DNA of 40,924 nucleotides from a virus, in the IMG/VR virus record IMGVR_UViG_3300007735_000726, positions 1 to 40,924 of that record; one strand, given 5' to 3'. Positions 3,328 to 40,924 of this stretch are shown here, in pieces. Position 1 is the stretch's first letter, and each line of letters opens with the position of its first letter. A program made the position numbers and the translations under genes. Under the pieces are notes generated by a model. That model searched no databases, had not been told where the DNA came from, and worked only from the letters and a program-made list of their open reading frames with translations.

Positions 3328-3510
3328 TTAGTATCTGTGTTCCGCTTTCAGCATCTTGCGTAGTGCGGACAGTTGATTCTTCACCGCGCGCCCATCGCTT
3401 GGCGTATGGGCCATGACGTAGTTGCGCCCATTCGGCAACCGCCATATCTGGTGGTTCTTGGTCCGCACCAGGACGGCCCCGGCGCGCTTGAGTTGGTCTA
3501 GGATCGTCAT
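3328..3510 (-). CDS. HicA-like small protein, 60 aa
   Basis: The ATG overlaps the stop of the RusA gene (ATGA). The sequence LKRAGAVLVRTKNHQIWRLP, then AHTPSDGRAVKNQLSALRKML, follows the HicA pattern: beta-alpha-beta-beta fold, His in the second strand (KNHQIW), then a final helix. HicA proteins are double-stranded RNA-binding-fold mRNA interferases that normally pair with a HicB antitoxin. No HicB is adjacent, so this may be a domesticated RNA-binding protein. It is the last gene before the structured initiator leader. Confidence 0.6.
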   Translation of the reverse strand: MTILDQLKRAGAVLVRTKNHQIWRLPNGRNYVMAHTPSDGRAVKNQLSALRKMLKAEHRY

Positions 3511-5047: not shown

Positions 5048-6417
5048 TAGATCCACCTCGGGAGAGTCATTGATTTAGTGCCTTGCGCGGATGCCAGTTG
5101 CCGGCGTCCGGTTCCGTTTTGGATATCGGCCATCGCGTGAACCATGGCCGCTTTCATTTCTTCGTGCTTTTTCTGCTTTTCACGGATGGTCTTCAGGACC
5201 GGGCCTTCGGTTTCCGCGATTACCATGTAGGCGTCAACTGGACGCGTCTGACCAAACCGCCACGACCGCCGCACGGCCTGATAGAACTGTTCGTAGGAGT
5301 AGGACAGCCCGCAAAAGATATGCTTATTGCAGTGCTGCCAGTTCATTCCAAATCCAGCGATGCTCGGCTTTGTGACGATGCGCGAAAAGGCCCGGTCAGT
5401 AAAGCCGAGTAACTTCTCCTCTTTGACCTCCGTCCGCTCATCTCCGCGCACCTCTACCGCGCCGTCAATCACCCGCATCAGCTCGTCTGCCTCGTAGTTG
5501 GTGTTGCACCAGATACACCACGGATCTTTCGAGTCGCCGATGATCTCGGCAACGCGCGCCGCCCTTGCCGGCGCCGTCAACCGCATCTCCTGATGCAAGC
5601 CTGTCGCCGATACATCTGCCACTCGAAAAAGCTGACCGTTGGCGTTGATAGATTGATCGACGGCGACTATTTCCTCGTGGATGTTCAGCGCTGGCATAAC
5701 CCACCCGTCGTCCGAAAACCCCAGGTCGGATGGCTTTTCCATACAGACGGACCACGACGCCACCCACCTCCAGTAGTCGGCCTCCGCGTGGCCTTTCAGC
5801 CGGTATCCTCCCGCCTTCATGGTGTCATTCAGGAACCAGCGCATTAGCATCTGTCCGCCGCTCATGATGTCAAGGAACTCCGAGTGGTTTCCGAGTTCCA
5901 TGTGGTCATTCGGCGATGGCGTGGCCGAACAGCACAGCTTGTATGGCGTGCCGGCAAACGAGTCTTGCAGCATCCTACGAGTTGCACCTGTGAAGTTCTT
6001 GAGGATGCTCGATTCGTCCAACACGACGGCCGCGAAGTGCGCCGCGTCGAAGTGCTTCAACATGTCGTAATTGGCTACATTCACGCCCGGCCGCACGTCC
6101 TTCTGGCTGCGACACTGCGTGATCTCTATGCCGAACTTTGCGCCCTCTGCTACGGTTTGCGCCGTCACTGCCAGCGGTGCCAGAATCAGCGCATCGCCGC
6201 CTGTGTGCTGGCATACCTGCCTCGCCCATTCCGCTTGCATGGCCGTCTTTCCGCTTCCGCACTCGGTAAACAGCGCAAACTTTCCAGCGTTCAGCGCCCG
6301 CGTGATCGAGTGCCGCTGGAATCCAAATAGCTTTCCGTTAAGGTCAAACTCGCCGTCAATTCCAGATAGCGGCGGAATGACGTGTTTAGCATCTAGAAAC
6401 TGCCGATATGCGCTCAT
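5047..6417 (-). CDS. SNF2-type superfamily 2 helicase
   Basis: 456 residues from MSAYRQFLDAKHVIPPLSG, whose ATG overlaps the upstream stop (ATGA). Motif Q/I: FGFQRHSI and TECGSGKTAM (Walker A). Motif II is VVLDESS rather than DEAH. Motif III: LCCSATPSPND. Motifs V/VI: AGFGMNWQHCNKHIF and QAVRRSWRFGQTRPV, the QxxxRxxRxGQ arginine-finger pattern of SNF2/RapA-like translocases. It is probably a double-stranded-DNA translocase or remodeller rather than a replicative helicase. It is coupled to the methyltransferase, and such pairs recur in phage genomes. Confidence 0.88.
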   Translation of the reverse strand: MSAYRQFLDAKHVIPPLSGIDGEFDLNGKLFGFQRHSITRALNAGKFALFTECGSGKTAMQAEWARQVCQHTGGDALILAPLAVTAQTVAEGAKFGIEITQCRSQKDVRPGVNVANYDMLKHFDAAHFAAVVLDESSILKNFTGATRRMLQDSFAGTPYKLCCSATPSPNDHMELGNHSEFLDIMSGGQMLMRWFLNDTMKAGGYRLKGHAEADYWRWVASWSVCMEKPSDLGFSDDGWVMPALNIHEEIVAVDQSINANGQLFRVADVSATGLHQEMRLTAPARAARVAEIIGDSKDPWCIWCNTNYEADELMRVIDGAVEVRGDERTEVKEEKLLGFTDRAFSRIVTKPSIAGFGMNWQHCNKHIFCGLSYSYEQFYQAVRRSWRFGQTRPVDAYMVIAETEGPVLKTIREKQKKHEEMKAAMVHAMADIQNGTGRRQLASAQGTKSMTLPRWI

Positions 6418-11195: not shown

Positions 11196-11374
11196 CGCGT
11201 CACCGCCATGACCACCACGGCCAGTACCGAACAGGTCGCCAGCGCCAGCGTTCCGTATAGCAGCCGCTCGGCCTTGCGGAGCTTCGCCGCCGTCGCCGCG
11301 TGCGTCTCCTCGTGAATCTTGTTGATGTGGACGATGAAGTCGTCCAGCACGTCGGCCATGACTTCGCGCTTCAT
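11192..11374 (-). CDS. membrane-anchored coiled-coil protein, 60 aa
   Basis: The first ~38 residues are helical (DVLDDFIVHINKIHEETHAA, TAAKLRKAERLL), followed by one membrane helix (YGTLALATCSVLAVVVMAV). It is joined to the genes on both sides by ATGA overlaps. No family recognised; the layout resembles small inner-membrane exclusion or anti-host peptides. Confidence 0.5.
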   Translation of the reverse strand: MKREVMADVLDDFIVHINKIHEETHAATAAKLRKAERLLYGTLALATCSVLAVVVMAVTR

Positions 11375-11577
11375 GCGGCACCGCCAGCGTCAACGAATGC
11401 GATCAGGTCGGCGGCTTCGTGGTCGCCAGCCTTTGCGCGCGCCTCATGCAGCGCCCAGGCCAGCCGCCACGCCTCCTTGCGGCGCGACGAGCGCGTCATT
11501 GCCTCATCTGCGGCCCGCGCGGCCTTCGGCATCGGCAACGCGGCGGCGTTGCTGGAGTATCGTTCAATACCCATCAT
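11371..11577 (-). CDS. first gene of the early operon, 68 aa
   Basis: GAGGGAG precedes ATG by about 6 bases. The protein is basic and helical (MTRSSRRKEAWRLAWALHEA, then KAGDHEAADLIAFVD). It is the first gene downstream of the attP region, and all genes from here to the initiator run the same way in near-continuous overlap. No family recognised. Confidence 0.5.
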   Translation of the reverse strand: MMGIERYSSNAAALPMPKAARAADEAMTRSSRRKEAWRLAWALHEARAKAGDHEAADLIAFVDAGGAA

Positions 11578-11667: not shown

Positions 11668-11697
11668 CGCGTTGCAAACAAATCTACTTACGCTTCG

Positions 11698-11725
11698 GCG
11701 GGTTCGAGCCCCGGCCGACTCACCA
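11698..11725 (+). other. attP: attP core: 3' end of a tRNA gene
   Basis: The plus strand reads as a tRNA T-arm and acceptor end: stem GCGGG, loop TTCGAGC, stem CCCGG (one end mismatch), acceptor strand CCGACTC, discriminator A and CCA. Just before it, CGCTTCGGCG could be a class II variable arm. No 5' half is present, so it is not a gene. It lies 18 bases beyond the integrase stop. Tyrosine integrases often use tRNA 3' ends and carry the identical piece in attP to restore the host gene. The host tRNA would have a 5' end complementary to CCGACTC. Confidence 0.75.
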
Positions 11726-11742: not shown

Positions 11743-12879
11743 TCAATTCTTTAGCGGCGTGGATTCTGCAGCGTTCCAGCTTTGTGCCAGTGAATCCATG
11801 GCCCACATCTTGCCAAGCTCGGCCTTTAGCTGCTCCTGGCGAGACTTCACCCACGGGTCGTAGTGCTTGTGGGTCACCTTCGTGGAGGTGTGACCCAGGA
11901 GCCTCGAAACAATCTCAATCGGTACGCCAGCATTAAGCGACTCAACGGCGAACGTGTCGCGCATCCGGTGTAGTGACGGACGGCCCACAATTCCAACCCG
12001 CTTACACAGAGTCCGAAACGCGCGACCAAAGTTTCCGCCGACGATGTCGGGCGAACTGTTGCCGGTCCAAAACCAGAACCGCTCAGACACCCGCTCGATG
12101 TGCCGCAACTCGTCCACGACAGCCGGCGGAAGCACGGTGTACAGCGGCTCCCCGGTCTTCTCTTGCCGGAGGAGCAACTCGTTGCCACGCAGCGCCGCGC
12201 ACGGTAGCGTAGCGGCATCACCACGGCGAAGCCCGGTATATCGCAGCACCATCAGGTATGCGCGCAACCGTCGCCCTTCGGCTGGCTGGCCCTGGTTGGC
12301 TGCGGCACCGATCAGCGCGGCCACCTCCTCCCGGCTAAACGGCAGCGTCGGAGCCGTGCGTACTTTCGGCGACTTCAACCGGTCGGCCACAGCTTCGGTA
12401 GTGTACCCTCTGTCCTTGGTCCACCGGAAAAACACCCGCAGCCGTTCCACTGCTTTGCTCTGGCTGATCGCCGCTCCCGTCCACGTCGCCCGCCATGCGG
12501 TCAGGTCGGCCAGTGACACGGACGAAACCGCAGATCCCGAAAACCGCATCACCAAGCTGGAGCAATCGCGGGAGGTTAGCAGAGTCCGGTACTTCCTGAT
12601 CGTATTCGCTGCCATCTTCCGCGCCTCCTGATCTTGTATGAACTCTTCGCATACGGCCTCAACCGTCCTCTCAACCTGCTTGCGTCCGGTGACTTCCCAA
12701 TTGTGCAACCGCTCCTCGGCGACCTTCCAAGACCGCGTATCCATGCTCTGCTTCACCGCGCGGCCACCGATGGACCCTTGCGCCCAAATCGGACATTTAC
12801 AGGTCCAGTGCGCTTTGCCTTTGTCGGCAAATTTGCACGTTTTCGAGTGGCGGCGGTAGGCTTTGAGCATGTAGAGCAT
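11743..12879 (-). CDS. int: tyrosine integrase
   Basis: 378 residues from MLYMLKAYRRHSKTCK; a second Met three codons in is possible. The N-terminus has a Cys/His cluster (HSKTCKF, TCKCPIW) followed by DTRSWKVAEERL, a head I recall from acidobacterial integrases. A SAM-like core-binding domain follows (~95-180), then the catalytic domain: R218 in YTGLRRGD, K241 in RQEKTG, H304 and R307 in HRMRD, H330 in LLGHTS and Tyr340 in HKHYDPW, a complete active set. It catalyses integration at attP, which lies just past its stop codon. It sits one base after the excisionase-like gene. Confidence 0.95.
   Translation of the reverse strand: MLYMLKAYRRHSKTCKFADKGKAHWTCKCPIWAQGSIGGRAVKQSMDTRSWKVAEERLHNWEVTGRKQVERTVEAVCEEFIQDQEARKMAANTIRKYRTLLTSRDCSSLVMRFSGSAVSSVSLADLTAWRATWTGAAISQSKAVERLRVFFRWTKDRGYTTEAVADRLKSPKVRTAPTLPFSREEVAALIGAAANQGQPAEGRRLRAYLMVLRYTGLRRGDAATLPCAALRGNELLLRQEKTGEPLYTVLPPAVVDELRHIERVSERFWFWTGNSSPDIVGGNFGRAFRTLCKRVGIVGRPSLHRMRDTFAVESLNAGVPIEIVSRLLGHTSTKVTHKHYDPWVKSRQEQLKAELGKMWAMDSLAQSWNAAESTPLKN
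11773..11791. repeat. arm-type repeat, right of attP
   Basis: Second copy of the 19-bp direct repeat described at 11616-11634, differing at two positions. It is inside the last codons of the integrase gene, which is unusual but seen in compact attP regions. Confidence 0.5.
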
Positions 12880-12880
12880 T

Positions 12881-13066
12881 TTACGCCTTCTGCGCCAGCC
12901 GTTCGATGGCTTCGGCGGAAATTCGCAGCGTCCGGTACCCTCGCCGCCCCGGCTTCGGATTCGCCAGCGTGATGACGCCCGGTTGTCCAGCAAACGTCTC
13001 GGTGACTTTGTTTGTGGACAGCTTCAGCATTTGCGCGACCTCCTTTGGCGTGTAGTACGTTTGCAT
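12881..13066 (-). CDS. excisionase-like HTH protein, 61 aa
   Basis: MQTYYTPKEVAQMLKLSTNK opens a MerR/helix_17-type winged helix, with GRRGYRTLRISAEAIERLAQ forming the wing and last helix. The size and position directly upstream of int fit a recombination directionality factor. The alternative is a small transcription factor for the int operon. Confidence 0.7.
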   Translation of the reverse strand: MQTYYTPKEVAQMLKLSTNKVTETFAGQPGVITLANPKPGRRGYRTLRISAEAIERLAQKA

Positions 13067-13224: not shown

Positions 13225-14064
13225 CTACTGAGTGAAACTGGTCGGCGTGGCTGGGGTGGGAGCAACGCGTGCGCTGCTGGCGTCCACGGAGATAGTGCCG
13301 GTCGACCGCTTCGTGTTGTAAATCTGCGTCAAATCGCAAACAAATTGGCGCGCAAGAGACTGGCGCATCGACTTACAGTTAACGCGGGCAAAGGCGATGA
13401 TTTGCGCCGGGATCTGCTTCGACAAACGCTTCGTAAACCCGCTGATATCCAAGTTGTTGCGGTTATTCCGGGCCAGGAAAACCGACAGTCCCTCTATCAG
13501 CTTTCCCTCCAAGCTGGCGCCCTTAAAGCTCCAAGCGTCCTCGATAATCTTCAGCGCAAGAGCTAGGGATTGCCCGGCATCCAGCGCCCACGCTGCCCTC
13601 AGGCTGGTGATTGCGGAAATCGCCCGCCCGCCATTGTACCGGTCAATACGTAGGCCACGGGCCTCAACGATCTTTGTCATGCTCGATACGGCGGAGGCAC
13701 CTGATCGCAACTCATTGAGATACTTGTCGTAACCGCCCACAACGGACCTATCGTTAAGCCGCAAAAACAAGCGTGACGCCTGTGCGTCAGTCTTCACGTC
13801 CGTGTGGACCATCACGCTCACTTCCCAGTCGCCGAGTCCTTGAGACATCAACAGCGTGGCGCGGTGCTGCCCGTCAACCAGCCAGGTGCCAAACACGCCG
13901 TCAATCGAGTACTCAACAGCGTGAAGCGTGCCGATAGCGTCAAGATCAAATGACTTTTCAATTTGCTTCAGCTTGGTCGGCACCAGCGCCCGCTGCGCTG
14001 TTGGGTGAATCTTCAAATCCTTCGCCGGAATGCTCCGGACTATCGTGCGTGCTGCGGTAATCAT
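13225..14064 (-). CDS. ParB-fold protein with DGQHR motif, 279 aa
   Basis: The start MITAARTIVRSIPAKDLKIH has GGAGAG upstream; the longer ORF runs antisense-like through the preceding gene. The first ~100 residues look like a ParB/Srx domain: IEKSFDLDAIGTLHAVEYSI, then TWLVDGQHRATLLMSQG with the DGQHR signature. The middle and C-terminal parts are helical (VVGGYDKYLNELRSG, SLALALKIIEDAWSF). Such phage proteins bind DNA or act as nucleotidases or nucleases in some families; the specific activity here is unknown. It overlaps the other ParB-like gene by 107 bases. Confidence 0.7.
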   Translation of the reverse strand: MITAARTIVRSIPAKDLKIHPTAQRALVPTKLKQIEKSFDLDAIGTLHAVEYSIDGVFGTWLVDGQHRATLLMSQGLGDWEVSVMVHTDVKTDAQASRLFLRLNDRSVVGGYDKYLNELRSGASAVSSMTKIVEARGLRIDRYNGGRAISAITSLRAAWALDAGQSLALALKIIEDAWSFKGASLEGKLIEGLSVFLARNNRNNLDISGFTKRLSKQIPAQIIAFARVNCKSMRQSLARQFVCDLTQIYNTKRSTGTISVDASSARVAPTPATPTSFTQ

Positions 14065-14899
14065 GCTTTGCTCTCTCCAGTGATTTCTTAAAGGTTCTGA
14101 GTTGCGCAATGGCTGCCTCAATAGAGCGAATCCATTGCGATAGATCACTAACACTACTTGCTGCAACTGCGTGCTCCACCTTGATAGTTTCAAGGCACCC
14201 ACAGTGGGCCGCAATCGACCCAACGGATTCGGCGATTTTTCGGAAGTGGGCATTCTGAATGACATCCGCCCGCTTGCCGGTAAGCGGCTGGGCTGGCTTG
14301 CGCGTCACATCCTCGCCCTTCACCGCGCGCCGGTATTCCGTGTTGACCTTGGATTCGCCGCTCTTGATCCGCTCGAACGCGGCAGGGTCAGCTTCTTTGA
14401 CGGCAGCGGCCCTGTCAACGGATGTCTCCCCGACACCAACAGCCTTCGCGGCGATTGAGCGGGCGCGGCCGGTGTCGGGAGCAGGTGCTTTCTCCCCGCT
14501 AGAAGGTGTGGGTAAAGTTACCCGGACCTTATCACCGATCTTCTTACCCGGTGCGGCCTGCGTTGCCGCTTGCCGCTTCCGCGCCTCCTCCTCCAACAAC
14601 GGCAACATCTCAACCGCCACCGCCGCTTGCTGTCCTAACGTCAGATGTCGTCGGCTAAGGTTCTTCGACACCGCGAACATCGTCGGCGATCCGCCCGCGC
14701 CGTCCCACTTGGCGTAGCGCGGCTCGACCCCGGCAAGACCGCACGCCTTCGCCCGGTTCCTCCCGTCCAGAATCATATCCTCGTGAGTGATAATCGGCTC
14801 GATCAGACCTTGCTCTCGAATGCTTTTCGTGAGTCGGTCAAGCTCCTCTGCGCCCATCATTGGGAATAGGTCAGCAGCGGGATGATTCTGGAGGGTCAT
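13958..14899 (-). CDS. ParB-like partition/nuclease-domain protein, 313 aa
   Basis: The N-terminal ParB domain is plain: AEELDRLTKSIREQGLIEPI, then LDGRNRAKACGLAGVEPRYA (the GxxR box) and VSKNLSRRHLTLGQQAAVAV. A KorB/ParB-like HTH region follows (RSIAAKAVGVGETSVDRAAA), then a variable tail with a disordered acidic end. No ParA ATPase is encoded, so plasmid-style partition is unlikely; DNA-binding regulation is more plausible. The gene lies 2 bases after the 91-residue HTH gene. Confidence 0.8.
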   Translation of the reverse strand: MTLQNHPAADLFPMMGAEELDRLTKSIREQGLIEPIITHEDMILDGRNRAKACGLAGVEPRYAKWDGAGGSPTMFAVSKNLSRRHLTLGQQAAVAVEMLPLLEEEARKRQAATQAAPGKKIGDKVRVTLPTPSSGEKAPAPDTGRARSIAAKAVGVGETSVDRAAAVKEADPAAFERIKSGESKVNTEYRRAVKGEDVTRKPAQPLTGKRADVIQNAHFRKIAESVGSIAAHCGCLETIKVEHAVAASSVSDLSQWIRSIEAAIAQLRTFKKSLERAKHDYRSTHDSPEHSGEGFEDSPNSAAGAGADQAEAN

Positions 14900-14901
14900 A
14901 A

Positions 14902-15177
14902 CTACGCCGCCCTCCGCGCCATCGTCGCCGGCGGAGCCGTCAACAGCGACCGCCTCCCGGCCTTGTAGCCTCGCATTTCGGCCTGGGCCTCACGCCATTG
15001 CTGATGCTCAAAGATGGCATCAGCGGTGACGTTGTACTCCAGGTCCATAAATCTGGCCACTTGGCCAACAGTGCGCCCAGCTCGGTAGAGGTTGAACGCC
15101 TCCAGGCGAATCTGCGGCGAAGGCGCGGCGGAATGACTACCGCCGTCAATGACGTGCAAACGGCGTTGCGGCTTCAT
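14902..15177 (-). CDS. small HTH protein, 91 aa
   Basis: The segment RLEAFNLYRAGRTVGQVARF (residues ~24-43), then MDLEYNVTADAIFEHQQWRE, looks like a helix-turn-helix of the homeodomain/resolvase type, with basic flanks (MKPQRRLHV, GYKAGRRS). It overlaps the RHH-like gene by ATGA, so it belongs to the switch operon. It may regulate, but no operator can be assigned to it. Confidence 0.6.
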   Translation of the reverse strand: MKPQRRLHVIDGGSHSAAPSPQIRLEAFNLYRAGRTVGQVARFMDLEYNVTADAIFEHQQWREAQAEMRGYKAGRRSLLTAPPATMARRAA

Positions 15178-15386
15178 TGTGATACTCCTTTACAATTCTT
15201 CGTGTGGAAGTCAGCAACAGCCCGACGCAACGCCGCATCGACAAACTCCCTAATTTCCTGCCCAGTGAGAGCGCAAATGCTTTTAACTTGAACATACAGG
15301 CCAGGATCAACGTCGATAGAGCGCGCAACCCAAGCAATCGCTTTTGATAGCATGGTTGGCGTGTTTGGCTGTGTTGAACTAATCAC
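15174..15386 (-). CDS. ribbon-helix-helix regulator, leftward (candidate repressor)
   Basis: 70 residues from GTG at 15386; ATG at 15353 would shorten it by 11. ARSIDVDPGLYVQVKSICAL, then TGQEIREFVDAALRRAVADF, fits an RHH fold: strand, helix A, turn with TG, helix B. It begins where a transcript from the promoter at 15393-15421 should start, so its mRNA may be leaderless, as lambda cI is from PRM. It is the first gene of the HTH-ParB-ParB-xis-int operon and faces a second RHH-like gene across a 22-bp palindrome. Arc and Mnt of phage P22 are the known RHH precedent. Confidence 0.65.
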   Translation of the reverse strand: MISSTQPNTPTMLSKAIAWVARSIDVDPGLYVQVKSICALTGQEIREFVDAALRRAVADFHTKNCKGVSQ

Positions 15387-15392
15387 AATCTG

Positions 15393-15421
15393 ATCTTAGG
15401 TGCAATTGCACCTAAGTGCAA
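15393..15421 (-). promoter_or_regulatory. leftward promoter overlapping the palindrome
   Basis: On the minus strand TTGCAC (15421-15416), a 17-base spacer, then TAAGAT (15398-15393). The expected start falls at about 15386, the first base of the GTG codon. The hexamers are moderate (3/6 and 4/6 to consensus), but the exact 17-base spacing and the position make it plausible. The palindrome fills the spacer and most of the -10, so a bound repressor would block it. Confidence 0.45.
15395..15416. promoter_or_regulatory. 22-bp perfect palindrome, operator of the switch
   Basis: CTTAGGTGCAA followed directly by its reverse complement gives 22 symmetric bases with no mismatch. A third half-site (GTGCAAT, 15416-15422) follows immediately. 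It lies in the ~70-base space between two divergent RHH-like genes, exactly where a shared operator is expected. Two RHH dimers binding the two half-sites would be the simplest model. Confidence 0.7.
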
Positions 15422-15457
15422 TCACTTTCTGTGTCTTTGTAAAAAAAGGTGCTTTGT

Positions 15458-15901
15458 ATGAAAAAGTATGGAGTGTTGCTATCCGCGTTAGAACATAAGG
15501 CGCTAAAGACCGCAGCGGCGGAGCGCGGCGTACTCATGCAAGACATCGCCCGCAACGCCGTCCTCGCCGCCCTCACCGGCCCCACCCCCATTGCCGCCCC
15601 GAAATCGTCCGTGATACCATCGCTCCACCGCATCCACGCGCAGCTGCTGTCCGTCGCAGCTGCCTTACAAAATATAACGGATGCGCTTGGAGAGATAGAT
15701 GTCACAGAGGACACGGAAACGACCGACGCAATCGCTGCTAGTGATGCCGCCGCCGCAAACGGGCAGCGAGTGGCTCGCCGAATACTGCGCGGGCTGGAGC
15801 AGCCTGCTGGACGCGCAGGAGCGAGTTCTGGCGGCCCAGACGCAACTGCTGGCGGCCCAACGGAAGCTGCTGGCGGGCCTCAGCGTAAAGCACAGCCGTA
15901 A
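15458..15901 (+). CDS. ribbon-helix-helix-like protein, rightward, 147 aa
   Basis: The ATG at 15458 follows AAAAGG by 8 bases; a GTG at 15449 is possible. Residues 1-42, MKKYGVLLSALEHKALKTAA, then AERGVLMQDIARNAVLAALT, fit the CopG pattern of strand, helix, RG-turn, helix. A helical segment follows (IPSLHRIHAQLLSVAAALQN). The last ~65 residues overlap the next gene in another frame and are Gly/Ala/Pro-rich, so they may be poorly constrained. It is divergent from the leftward RHH gene across the palindrome, and is a candidate counter-repressor. Confidence 0.6.
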   Translation: MKKYGVLLSALEHKALKTAAAERGVLMQDIARNAVLAALTGPTPIAAPKSSVIPSLHRIHAQLLSVAAALQNITDALGEIDVTEDTETTDAIAASDAAAANGQRVARRILRGLEQPAGRAGASSGGPDATAGGPTEAAGGPQRKAQP

Positions 15902-15917
15902 GACAAGGGCCGTGTAA
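15699..15917 (+). CDS. small coiled-coil protein overlapping the RHH gene, 72 aa
   Basis: ATG at 15699 has GGAGAG 4 bases upstream. The protein has a convincing helix with regular leucines (WSSLLDAQERVLAAQTQLLA, then AQRKLLAGL) and a basic end. It overlaps the upstream gene by 203 bases in another frame, so one of the two readings in this stretch must be constrained by the other; this frame looks the more protein-like. It ends 7 bases before the hairpin terminator. Confidence 0.5.
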   Translation: MSQRTRKRPTQSLLVMPPPQTGSEWLAEYCAGWSSLLDAQERVLAAQTQLLAAQRKLLAGLSVKHSRKTRAV

Positions 15918-15923
15918 GACAGC

Positions 15924-15960
15924 AAAAGCCCCCCGCACCTGTTATGGTGTCGAGGGGCTT
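15924..15960 (-). terminator. hairpin terminator at convergent ends
   Basis: AAGCCCC (15926-15932) pairs with GGGGCTT (15954-15960), extended inside by CG and CACC/GGTG pairs around a 6-base loop. On the minus strand the stem is followed by TTTTGCTG. It would end the leftward fibre transcript just past the 124-residue gene, and its stem would also hinder the rightward RHH transcript. Confidence 0.75.
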
Positions 15961-15986
15961 CCTGGCGGTCGTGCTGGGGGTTGGGT

Positions 15987-38923: not shown

Positions 38924-40491
38924 ATTGGCGCTCCTCTCGTTTCCCAGATGGAAGTCGTTTTGGTGTTATGGGCGATGCCCACGGCCATCGTCACGGCGAC
39001 GGCTCCGTCAATGCGTTTTGAGTTCGTATTCCGGTTTGGCTTAACCAGCCGCATCATTCCGTACTCGGTCGATTTGACCGTGGCGCAATCAAAGCACCAG
39101 CGGGTAACCGGGTTGGACTCGTGCAGTAGTTTGCGGCTGTAGACCAGCCGCTCAACTTTTAGGCAAGGTTCGGTGAAGTTTGCCGGCGACTGCTTGAATG
39201 TCGCCAGCGGAATCTTTTCTTTCTCAAGACGCTGCGCCAACTCCTGAGCGAAAGCCGGGTCATATGCGAGAAGTGAGACTTCGTGGGTATGACACAGCGT
39301 CTTGATAGCTTGCTCCACCATGGCGAAGTCGGTAACATCGCCAGGGGTGAGAGAGATAAAACCGTCAGCGGCCCATTGTGCGTAGGGAACACCGTCACGC
39401 TTTGACTTGGCGTCGATCCCGTTTTCGGGGAGCCAGTACCACGTTCGGATGTAGTGTGTTTCTCCATCCACCCACACCAGTGAGAGCGCCGTTAAATCCT
39501 GCGACCGGGCAAGGTCGAGGGCCGCGTAGCACGGGAGGCCGGTGAGATCAGGAAAATCAGTCAGTTCGCAGGCGTCCCATTCGTGCATGGGAATCCACTG
39601 GGTTTCGGAGGAGGTCCACTGGTTGAGGTAAAGCCGCCGAAATTGATTCTGGAGTTGCGGGCGTGCCAGCGCCTCGCGGAACTCGTCTTCATAGTCAGCT
39701 AACGAATGGTGGCCGGTATCTAGCAGTGGAAGCGCCAACGGCCATAGCTTTGTATCGGTCCAGTCCGCATCGCTAGGGACTTCATAGATCAGCGGTAGAT
39801 AAGACTCATCCACCACCTCGCCGGATAGCACGCGCTTTGCGTACTCATACTCCCGGTAACAGATGCTTTCTTGGTCGAAACCTGCCGTAGTGACGATGAT
39901 CCGCAGCGGCTGTCGGCGGGACTTGCTGCCGGTGGTCAGCGCGGCGTATAGTTCCTGATGCGCCGGCCCCCAGGCGTGCAGCTCGTCGAAAATTACCATC
40001 GACGGGTTGTATCCGTGCTTGCGCTTTCCGTCCGATGACAGCACCCGAAAAATTGAGTGCGTTTCCTTGTGCCGGATCAGCTTTTTAGACGGCGTGAACT
40101 CGCAAAGGTCTGAGAGGTCGGCGTTTGAGCGGATCAAGTCGGACGCTGCGTCGAAGACAATGGCCGCTTGGTCGGTGTCCGTCGCTGCCGCGTAAATCTC
40201 CTGCTTCGGCTCGGGATTGAGAAAGAACTCGCAAACCGCTACCGCCGCCGCGCCTTGCGTCTTTGCTTGCTTGCGGCCCAGCGTCTGAAACACCTTACGG
40301 AACTGACGGGAGCCGTCCGCGCGCTTCCAGCCAAATACGTTGGCGATCAGCTTCCTGGTGTGCGGGAGGAGGACGAAGGGTTCAGGCCCACCGCTTTTGG
40401 TTGATTTCGTCAGCGTCAGCGTGCCGATCAGTGCTTCGGCTACCGCTACGGCCTCCGCGTCGAAAAAGCTATGCTGGTTGTCTCCTTGCAC
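38920..40491 (-). CDS. terminase large subunit, 523 aa
   Basis: The ATPase domain has a Walker-A-like loop LGRKQAKTQG (usually RKNGKS/T), a Walker B with catalytic Glu (MVIFDELHAWG) and a coupling motif (LRIIVTTAGFD). The nuclease domain shows ALDLARSQDLTALSLVWVDG, LLAYDPAFAQELAQRLEK and RIDGAVAVTMAVG, supplying the acidic metal-binding residues. It is of the HK97/phiC31 Terminase_1 type. It translocates and cuts DNA at the portal. It overlaps the small subunit by 23 bases. Confidence 0.95.
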   Translation of the reverse strand: MQGDNQHSFFDAEAVAVAEALIGTLTLTKSTKSGGPEPFVLLPHTRKLIANVFGWKRADGSRQFRKVFQTLGRKQAKTQGAAAVAVCEFFLNPEPKQEIYAAATDTDQAAIVFDAASDLIRSNADLSDLCEFTPSKKLIRHKETHSIFRVLSSDGKRKHGYNPSMVIFDELHAWGPAHQELYAALTTGSKSRRQPLRIIVTTAGFDQESICYREYEYAKRVLSGEVVDESYLPLIYEVPSDADWTDTKLWPLALPLLDTGHHSLADYEDEFREALARPQLQNQFRRLYLNQWTSSETQWIPMHEWDACELTDFPDLTGLPCYAALDLARSQDLTALSLVWVDGETHYIRTWYWLPENGIDAKSKRDGVPYAQWAADGFISLTPGDVTDFAMVEQAIKTLCHTHEVSLLAYDPAFAQELAQRLEKEKIPLATFKQSPANFTEPCLKVERLVYSRKLLHESNPVTRWCFDCATVKSTEYGMMRLVKPNRNTNSKRIDGAVAVTMAVGIAHNTKTTSIWETRGAPI

Positions 40492-40879
40492 GTTCGATAA
40501 TCGCCAGGGTCTTCGAGATGCCCTTGTGCTGTACGGTGTCTTTGATCCCGGCCCGCTGCCGGTTACGCGGCCCGATGTTTAGCTGGCTGCGTAGTTCATC
40601 GATTTGCCGGCCCCAGGCAAGCTTAGTGCGCCCGTCTGATTCGTTCCGCCGCTCGATCATGGCGTCTGCCAGTTCTGCGTATTGGTCGGCGTCCACCTGC
40701 CGGATCGCCACGCCCGCCGCTCGGTTCTCGGCGACAATCTTCTGGAACAGCTTCAACCGCTCTGACTTGCACCATGCGGGAGGCGTGATGTCTTCCTGAA
40801 TGGGCTCCGGGATGATGCCGCCGTTGGCGACCGTGCCGCGCTTAGAATCCGGTCGCGGCTGAAAGCCTCTTGCTCCCAT
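40469..40879 (-). CDS. terminase small subunit (P27 family), 136 aa
   Basis: Begins MGARGFQPRPDSKRGTVANG. PEPIQEDITPPAWCKSERLK, then LFQKIVAENRAAGVAIRQVD and ADQYAELADAMIERRNESDG, match the P27-family pattern (P.wL...a...w......l...G.lt..D...l...c). The small subunit recognises the packaging site, normally adjacent to its gene, which here means the last 45 bases of the window and the first bases at the other end. No strong ribosome binding site is seen. Confidence 0.85.
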   Translation of the reverse strand: MGARGFQPRPDSKRGTVANGGIIPEPIQEDITPPAWCKSERLKLFQKIVAENRAAGVAIRQVDADQYAELADAMIERRNESDGRTKLAWGRQIDELRSQLNIGPRNRQRAGIKDTVQHKGISKTLAIIERARRQPA

Positions 40880-40924
40880 ATTGATAAACCATTTTCAAAA
40901 AGTTGGGAAAATCTCGCGCGTGAG
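40880..40924. other. right terminus, possible packaging-site half
   Basis: 45 non-coding bases beyond the small terminase, ending with CTCGCGCGTGAG, an inverted repeat broken only by one G:T-type mismatch, right at the end (40913-40924). Joined to the 47 non-coding bases at the left end, they would give a 92-base gap between HNH and terminase genes, the usual place of cos. No direct terminal repeat is visible between the two ends. Confidence 0.4.

Follow-up and report, generated by a model that had tools for sequence, protein, structure and literature searches.

A divergent pair of ribbon-helix-helix proteins as a candidate immunity and early-control switch of a temperate-type siphophage

Known switches and the layout of the locus

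Primary lysogeny switches are usually viewed as HTH-based (CI/Cro-type) or as relying on special repressors, and pairs of ribbon-helix-helix (RHH) proteins in phage immunity are so far known as the auxiliary immI region of P22. There, two divergent RHH genes (mnt and arc-ant) are separated by a gap of 90 bp, the Oarc operator lies inside the spacer of the Pant promoter, and Mnt consists of an RHH domain plus a C-terminal helix. P22 immI governs an antirepressor only, from within a late operon, and it is C2 and Cro of immC that make the main switch. The immI region has been located in the late-operon ant moron (PMC2629481), and P22 is described as maintaining lysogeny with both Mnt and Arc (PMC10516654). 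In SPbeta, YosL is an Arc-type RHH protein in lysis-lysogeny control (PMC10516654); the master repressor of that phage, however, is MrpR, which is not an RHH protein, and no divergent RHH pair is described there. Our literature search, which covered open-access text, found no paper on an RHH pair as the main lysogeny switch.

Here we describe a locus in the IMG/VR virus record IMGVR_UViG_3300007735_000726, all 40,924 bp of which (positions 1-40,924) were analysed and are referred to as the window. As part of our best explanation, we hold with moderate confidence that it governs immunity and early control in a temperate siphophage, with two divergent RHH proteins in place of CI/Cro. The minus strand carries nearly all of the window's genes, and the chief exception in the control region is a short unit starting at 15458. 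The leftward RHH gene (15174..15386, minus), a putative Arc/Cro-like early regulator, stands at the head of an HTH-ParB-ParB-xis-int run, as the earlier note had proposed and as the gene order supports. The second gene of this operon encodes a 91-aa HTH-like protein with homologues in relatives (HTH91; 14902..15177, minus), and it is followed on the same strand by a ParB-like protein (13958..14899; ParB_N E 0.004; PHROG ParB-like), a ParB/DUF6551-like protein identified by family match (13225..14064), an excisionase-like HTH_17 protein (12881..13066; 5.7e-5) and a tyrosine integrase (11743..12879; PF00589 7.5e-15). Directly downstream of the integrase gene lies a putative attP core resembling a tRNA 3' end, GGCGGGTTCGAGCCCCGGCCGACTCACCA (11697..11725, plus). 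In the other direction, the gene for a putative, Mnt-like lysogeny repressor (15458..15901, plus) is overlapped by ORF2 (15699..15917, plus), which would encode a coiled-coil-like protein of 72 aa, and a terminator-like hairpin region (15930..15980) separates this rightward operon from convergent late genes.

The integrase, the xis-like gene and the tRNA-3'-end-like attP indicate a temperate-type phage. The sequence at 11697-11725 resembles a tRNA T-arm/acceptor and is a likely attP core. Neither an integrated copy nor a host tRNA to match it was found, and a host search in Acidobacteriota gave distant portals only. Family scans of 43 window proteins plus the rest of the control region recovered no CI-, LexA- or XRE-type repressor, which bears out the earlier remark that no CI-like or LexA-like repressor is recognisable; in place of an HTH_3/XRE or LexA-type repressor the scans returned only the xis-like HTH_17 protein.

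P22 mnt/arc is a precedent for divergently paired RHH genes in phage immunity, with near-identical operator geometry. In the window, as in P22, a divergent RHH pair has a candidate operator in a promoter spacer; the gap is about 71 bp here, and the window palindrome (22 bp, Oarc being 21 bp) sits at the same offset as Oarc, both counted from the last -35 base. In both phages the operator, a putative one in the window, is placed in the promoter spacer of the operon whose first gene encodes the smaller of the two proteins, and the window's rightward protein, like Mnt, combines an RHH with a C-terminal helix. Unlike immI, however, the window pair heads the early/integration operon and no CI/Cro was detected; the leftward mRNA is of leaderless type, the putative repressor gene is followed by ORF2, and the operon holds no recognisable ant-like antirepressor gene. 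Sequence comparison returned 33% identity over 30 aa between Mnt and the rightward protein, at an E of 0.28 obtained with a tiny set, and no significant match between Arc and the leftward protein. The region may thus work like immI by layout, which does not imply membership in immI, homology being undetected. Lambdoid CI/Cro regions also place a repressor gene and an early regulator gene back to back with operators in common, and there, as in the window, the first early gene encodes a small DNA-binding protein; unlike that system, the window has RHH rather than HTH proteins, one compact operator site and no LexA-type autocleavage domain. With SPbeta the window would share an RHH protein in the lysogeny decision, its role here being putative.

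The divergent proteins and the palindrome between their genes

The leftward gene is best read from the GTG at 15386 (70 aa) rather than from the ATG at 15353 (59 aa), a start that is supported by the conserved promoter position and by a 70-aa homologue in record G458 (46% identity). AF2 modelling of the 59-aa form gave two confident helices (residues 17-30 and 34-54, pLDDT 83-88), the strand not being modelled in the monomer. Most of the 21 Foldseek matches of this model in the PDB are RHH proteins, among them ParG, CopASO, Rv0298, MazE, MatP, AmrZ, NikR, TacA2 and CopG, but at E values of 2.5-10. By sequence, ParD was the top match, a weak one; the leftward family profile likewise found ParD as its best PDB match (E 0.015) and also matched HP0222. 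Taken together, these results are consistent with, though not decisive for, membership in the RHH (MetJ/Arc) superfamily.

The rightward protein has a predicted RHH at residues 1-42, followed by a helix at 54-79. An RHH profile built from relatives, with the rightward protein excluded, scored it at 19.5 bits (E 2e-5), second among 421 window ORFs and behind the leftward protein only, and none of 5000 shuffles reached this score; in a leave-out test of the profile, several RHH-like subfamilies were not recovered once removed. A three-row profile (the window, G038 and G054 proteins) matched VapB26, CopG and ParG in the PDB, again placing the rightward protein in the RHH superfamily. Structure prediction, which the earlier note had suggested for both proteins, was thus informative for the leftward one; the single-sequence AF2 model of rightward residues 1-88 formed helix 54-79 but merged residues 3-39 into one long helix, leaving the RHH part unresolved. 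Several weak but agreeing tests of profile, family and fold therefore suggest that both divergent proteins are RHH-type, as had been proposed.

The codon signal of the rightward gene follows the RHH frame to about 15720-15740 and then shifts to that of ORF2, while the RHH frame stays open to 15901. ORF2, in frame +1, shares about 200 nt with the 3' part of the RHH ORF and has a GGAG Shine-Dalgarno; similar overlapping ORFs exist in G038 (L258) and G458 (L377, 3074-3301, minus). The end of the unit previously delimited as 15174-15917 thus belongs to ORF2, the rightward RHH ORF itself running over 15458-15901. ORF2 matched no toxin or defence family and is possibly a co-repressor or anti-repressor.

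Between the divergent genes lies the palindrome CTTAGGTGCAATTGCACCTAAG (15395..15416), with 11+11 bp and zero mismatches as first noticed. The separation of about 70 bases reported earlier corresponds to 71 bp with the GTG start at 15386, and to 104 bp with the ATG at 15353. No other perfect palindrome of at least 14 bp occurs in the 40.9-kb window, and since shuffled windows average 0.13 palindromes of at least 20 bp per whole window, chance does not readily account for this one in a 71-bp gap. As had been claimed, this putative operator is overlapped by the leftward promoter, TTGCAC-17-TAAGAT (15421..15393, minus): the palindrome fills the -35/-10 spacer, beginning at the last -35 base and ending within the -10. 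A strict sigma-70 consensus scan detected no promoter, and the leftward promoter is weak by consensus; the call rests instead on positional conservation, the layout -35 / 17-18 bp / -10 / 6-9 nt / GTG or ATG recurring in 12 of 13 related loci. As the promoter lies 6 nt from the GTG, the sequence suggests a leaderless-type leftward mRNA. No rightward promoter was recognisable. The additional half-site described earlier, CCTAAGTGCAA (15411..15421, plus), is present; it contains the -35 and lies partly on the palindrome, but it is imperfect (2 mismatches). At that stringency the window contains 7 matches against 7.1 expected; we therefore rejected it as an independent signal, and it counts through its position only.

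RHH proteins are common as antitoxins and as ParG/ParR-like adaptors, ORF2 overlaps an RHH gene and ParB-like genes lie nearby, so that the rightward RHH and ORF2 could be read as a type II toxin-antitoxin system, or an RHH protein and the ParB-like proteins as a partition system. We consider both readings very unlikely and unsupported. No toxin gene was recognised beside the RHH gene, ORF2 being without a toxin family match. A ParABS- or ParG-type partition system would be expected to have a ParA-type ATPase with centromere iterons, and no ParA family was found among the scanned window proteins; the integrase and tRNA-like attP favour integration over plasmid partition, and the repeats sit inside a promoter.

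Distribution of the control elements among relatives

Neither an IMG/VR pattern scan nor INPHARED tblastn found direct relatives of either RHH protein, and relatives were reached via the terminase, portal, metallophosphatase and exonuclease genes. The terminase scan led to a syntenic record, G001, and the other three scans led to many more. In at least 15 related records, some with and some without an integrase, the first gene of the early operon is RHH-like; they comprise G001, G027, G036, G028, G053, G041, G050, G054, G038/G450, L290, L293, L301, L302, L303, G458, L392 and others. In most of these RHH-headed relatives no tyrosine integrase was detected, some of the records being fragments. 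In G027 the RHH gene lies immediately upstream of a homologue of the window gene at 11371-11577, whereas in the window and G458 the block from HTH91 to int lies between the two.

A second divergent RHH pair occurs in G038 and its near-twin G450, with a 70-bp gap, xis, integrase and tRNA-like attP. The G038 counterpart of the rightward protein matched Pfam Antitox_RHH (5.7e-5) and RHH_1 (0.0014), and G450 has a tRNA-3'-end-like element after int at 5438-5462, the tRNA end differing from that of the window. G458 is a looser third example, with a homologous leftward RHH and HTH91, an integrase, and a divergent gene plus ORF2, although its divergent protein scored poorly against the RHH profile (3.1 bits). 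The divergent unit of gene and overlapping coiled-coil ORF was thus found in the window, G038/G450 and G458, all three integrase-carrying, and it is absent in integrase-less relatives. Integrases also occur in G050, G462 and G464; in G050 the divergent gene was not observed. The integrase frame of G050 (C1:37702-38889) is broken by one TAG and may be a broken gene.

MetJ-type RHH repressors bind as adjacent dimers on 8-bp tandem boxes, and the promoters of three relatives resemble such arrays. The promoter spacers of G038 (lag-8 p=0.0055) and G001 (p 0.003) each contain two 8-bp tandem repeats, and G458 has four 8-bp repeats overlapping the promoter (0/2000 shuffles). Unlike MetJ boxes, the window has an inverted repeat, the palindrome standing in place of 8-bp direct repeats, and there is no link to methionine control. 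Lag-8 direct periodicity is absent in the window itself, so this argument covers G038, G001 and G458 only; the regulatory regions of G038, G001 and the window can nevertheless be aligned around the repeats or palindrome. G001 (L168:12999-13215) keeps its 8-bp promoter repeats and HTH91, but a 52-aa membrane-protein-like ORF replaces the divergent RHH and no tyrosine integrase was found. Both int and the divergent RHH seem to have been lost from this member, an apparent loss of lysogeny.

The gene after the leftward RHH encodes an HTH91 homologue in G001 (76% identity) and G458, and an analogue has the same place in G038. Since an HTH-like protein is common to the integrase-bearing lineages, HTH91 itself might act as the lysogeny repressor, with the RHH pair in an auxiliary role, which we regard as quite improbable. 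The HTH91 proteins of the window and G001 share 76% identity while the promoter repeats of the two are unrelated in sequence, so HTH91 is not expected to be the repeat binder; it also belongs to an operon expected to be silent in a lysogen, and G001 keeps it without an integrase.

Integrase-less relatives retain an RHH-like first gene and the leaderless promoter, but spacer repeats were not found in them except in G001; G054 gave a marginal signal (p 0.037). These distributions bear on a further alternative, that the palindrome serves the leftward RHH alone as a site of autoregulation, like Arc on Oarc, providing early-operon feedback, with the divergent gene accessory and lysogeny kept otherwise. 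Conservation of an RHH-like first gene in integrase-less relatives agrees with it, as does P22, where the product of the first gene binds Oarc, a site in the equivalent position. Integrase-less relatives with a leftward RHH lack such spacer repeats, however, even L392, whose strand residues (KSIDVD) are nearly identical to those of the window (RSIDVD), and one integrase-less branch has instead a fixed TATA[T/G]AGC element (14/15), placed 72 nt before the start. Promoter repeats thus appear to track with the divergent gene and the integrase-bearing branch, G001 excepted, and we consider the alternative rather unlikely, if the most serious of those weighed here. In integrase-less L243, L244, L254 and others, the region some 72 nt ahead of the RHH start carries a fixed palindrome, GCTATATAGC; it is absent from the checked integrase-bearing loci and G001.

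A candidate two-protein switch

Because RHH-like first genes occur in many relatives without a detectable integrase, the leftward RHH appears to be an ancestral early regulator, Cro/Arc-like and not lysogeny-specific, and by its distribution only the rightward RHH (plus ORF2) seems to track with lysogeny. The idea that the main switch is built from two RHH proteins therefore needs qualification: the RHH pair, the temperate genes and the second pair in G038/G450 speak for it, but the leftward protein is not specific to lysogeny. The best reading of the comparative data is that the rightward RHH would be the lysogeny repressor and the leftward RHH an early counter-regulator. Overall, a two-RHH immunity and early-control switch in place of CI/Cro is the best explanation, and on balance a probable one.

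Building on the gene order, palindrome, promoter position, RHH character, int/attP and co-occurrence in relatives computed here, we infer how the palindrome is bound, how repression occurs and how lysogeny is maintained. In a lysogen, the rightward RHH, with ORF2 as a possible partner, would bind the 22-bp palindrome as cooperating dimers. As the palindrome is the -35/-10 spacer of the leftward promoter, its occupancy would block that promoter and silence RHH-left, the HTH protein, the ParB-like proteins, xis and int, and probably early genes beyond. Upon infection or induction, the leaderless leftward transcript would yield the Arc/Cro-like RHH-left, which would damp its own and/or the rightward promoter, leading to commitment to lytic growth. 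The assignment of the palindrome binder could be reversed: the P22 analogy favours the leftward, Arc-like protein, whereas the distribution of repeats among relatives favours the rightward one.

A stronger version, to which we give an even chance, is that this is a primary lysis-lysogeny switch of two RHH proteins without CI/Cro, in which the early RHH of virulent relatives became the Cro-like half when an integration module was gained together with ORF2 and a divergent RHH repressor. In that case the operator, lying within the leaderless early promoter, would vary in sequence by lineage, as immunity specificities do. If true, an RHH pair heading the main early operon would constitute a minimal two-protein switch and suggest a reason for the lack of a recognisable repressor in some environmental prophages; the integrase-less sister phages, retaining just the early RHH half, offer an evolutionary comparison.

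Elsewhere in the window, a HicA-like protein is encoded at 3328-3510 (PADLOC 1.7e-6; Pfam HicA_toxin 0.0022 among window proteins), and no HicB partner for it was recognised in the window. At the window ends (1-1020 and 40469-40924), the left-end HNH gene adjoins terminase genes in the relative G001, and the record therefore looks circularly permuted.
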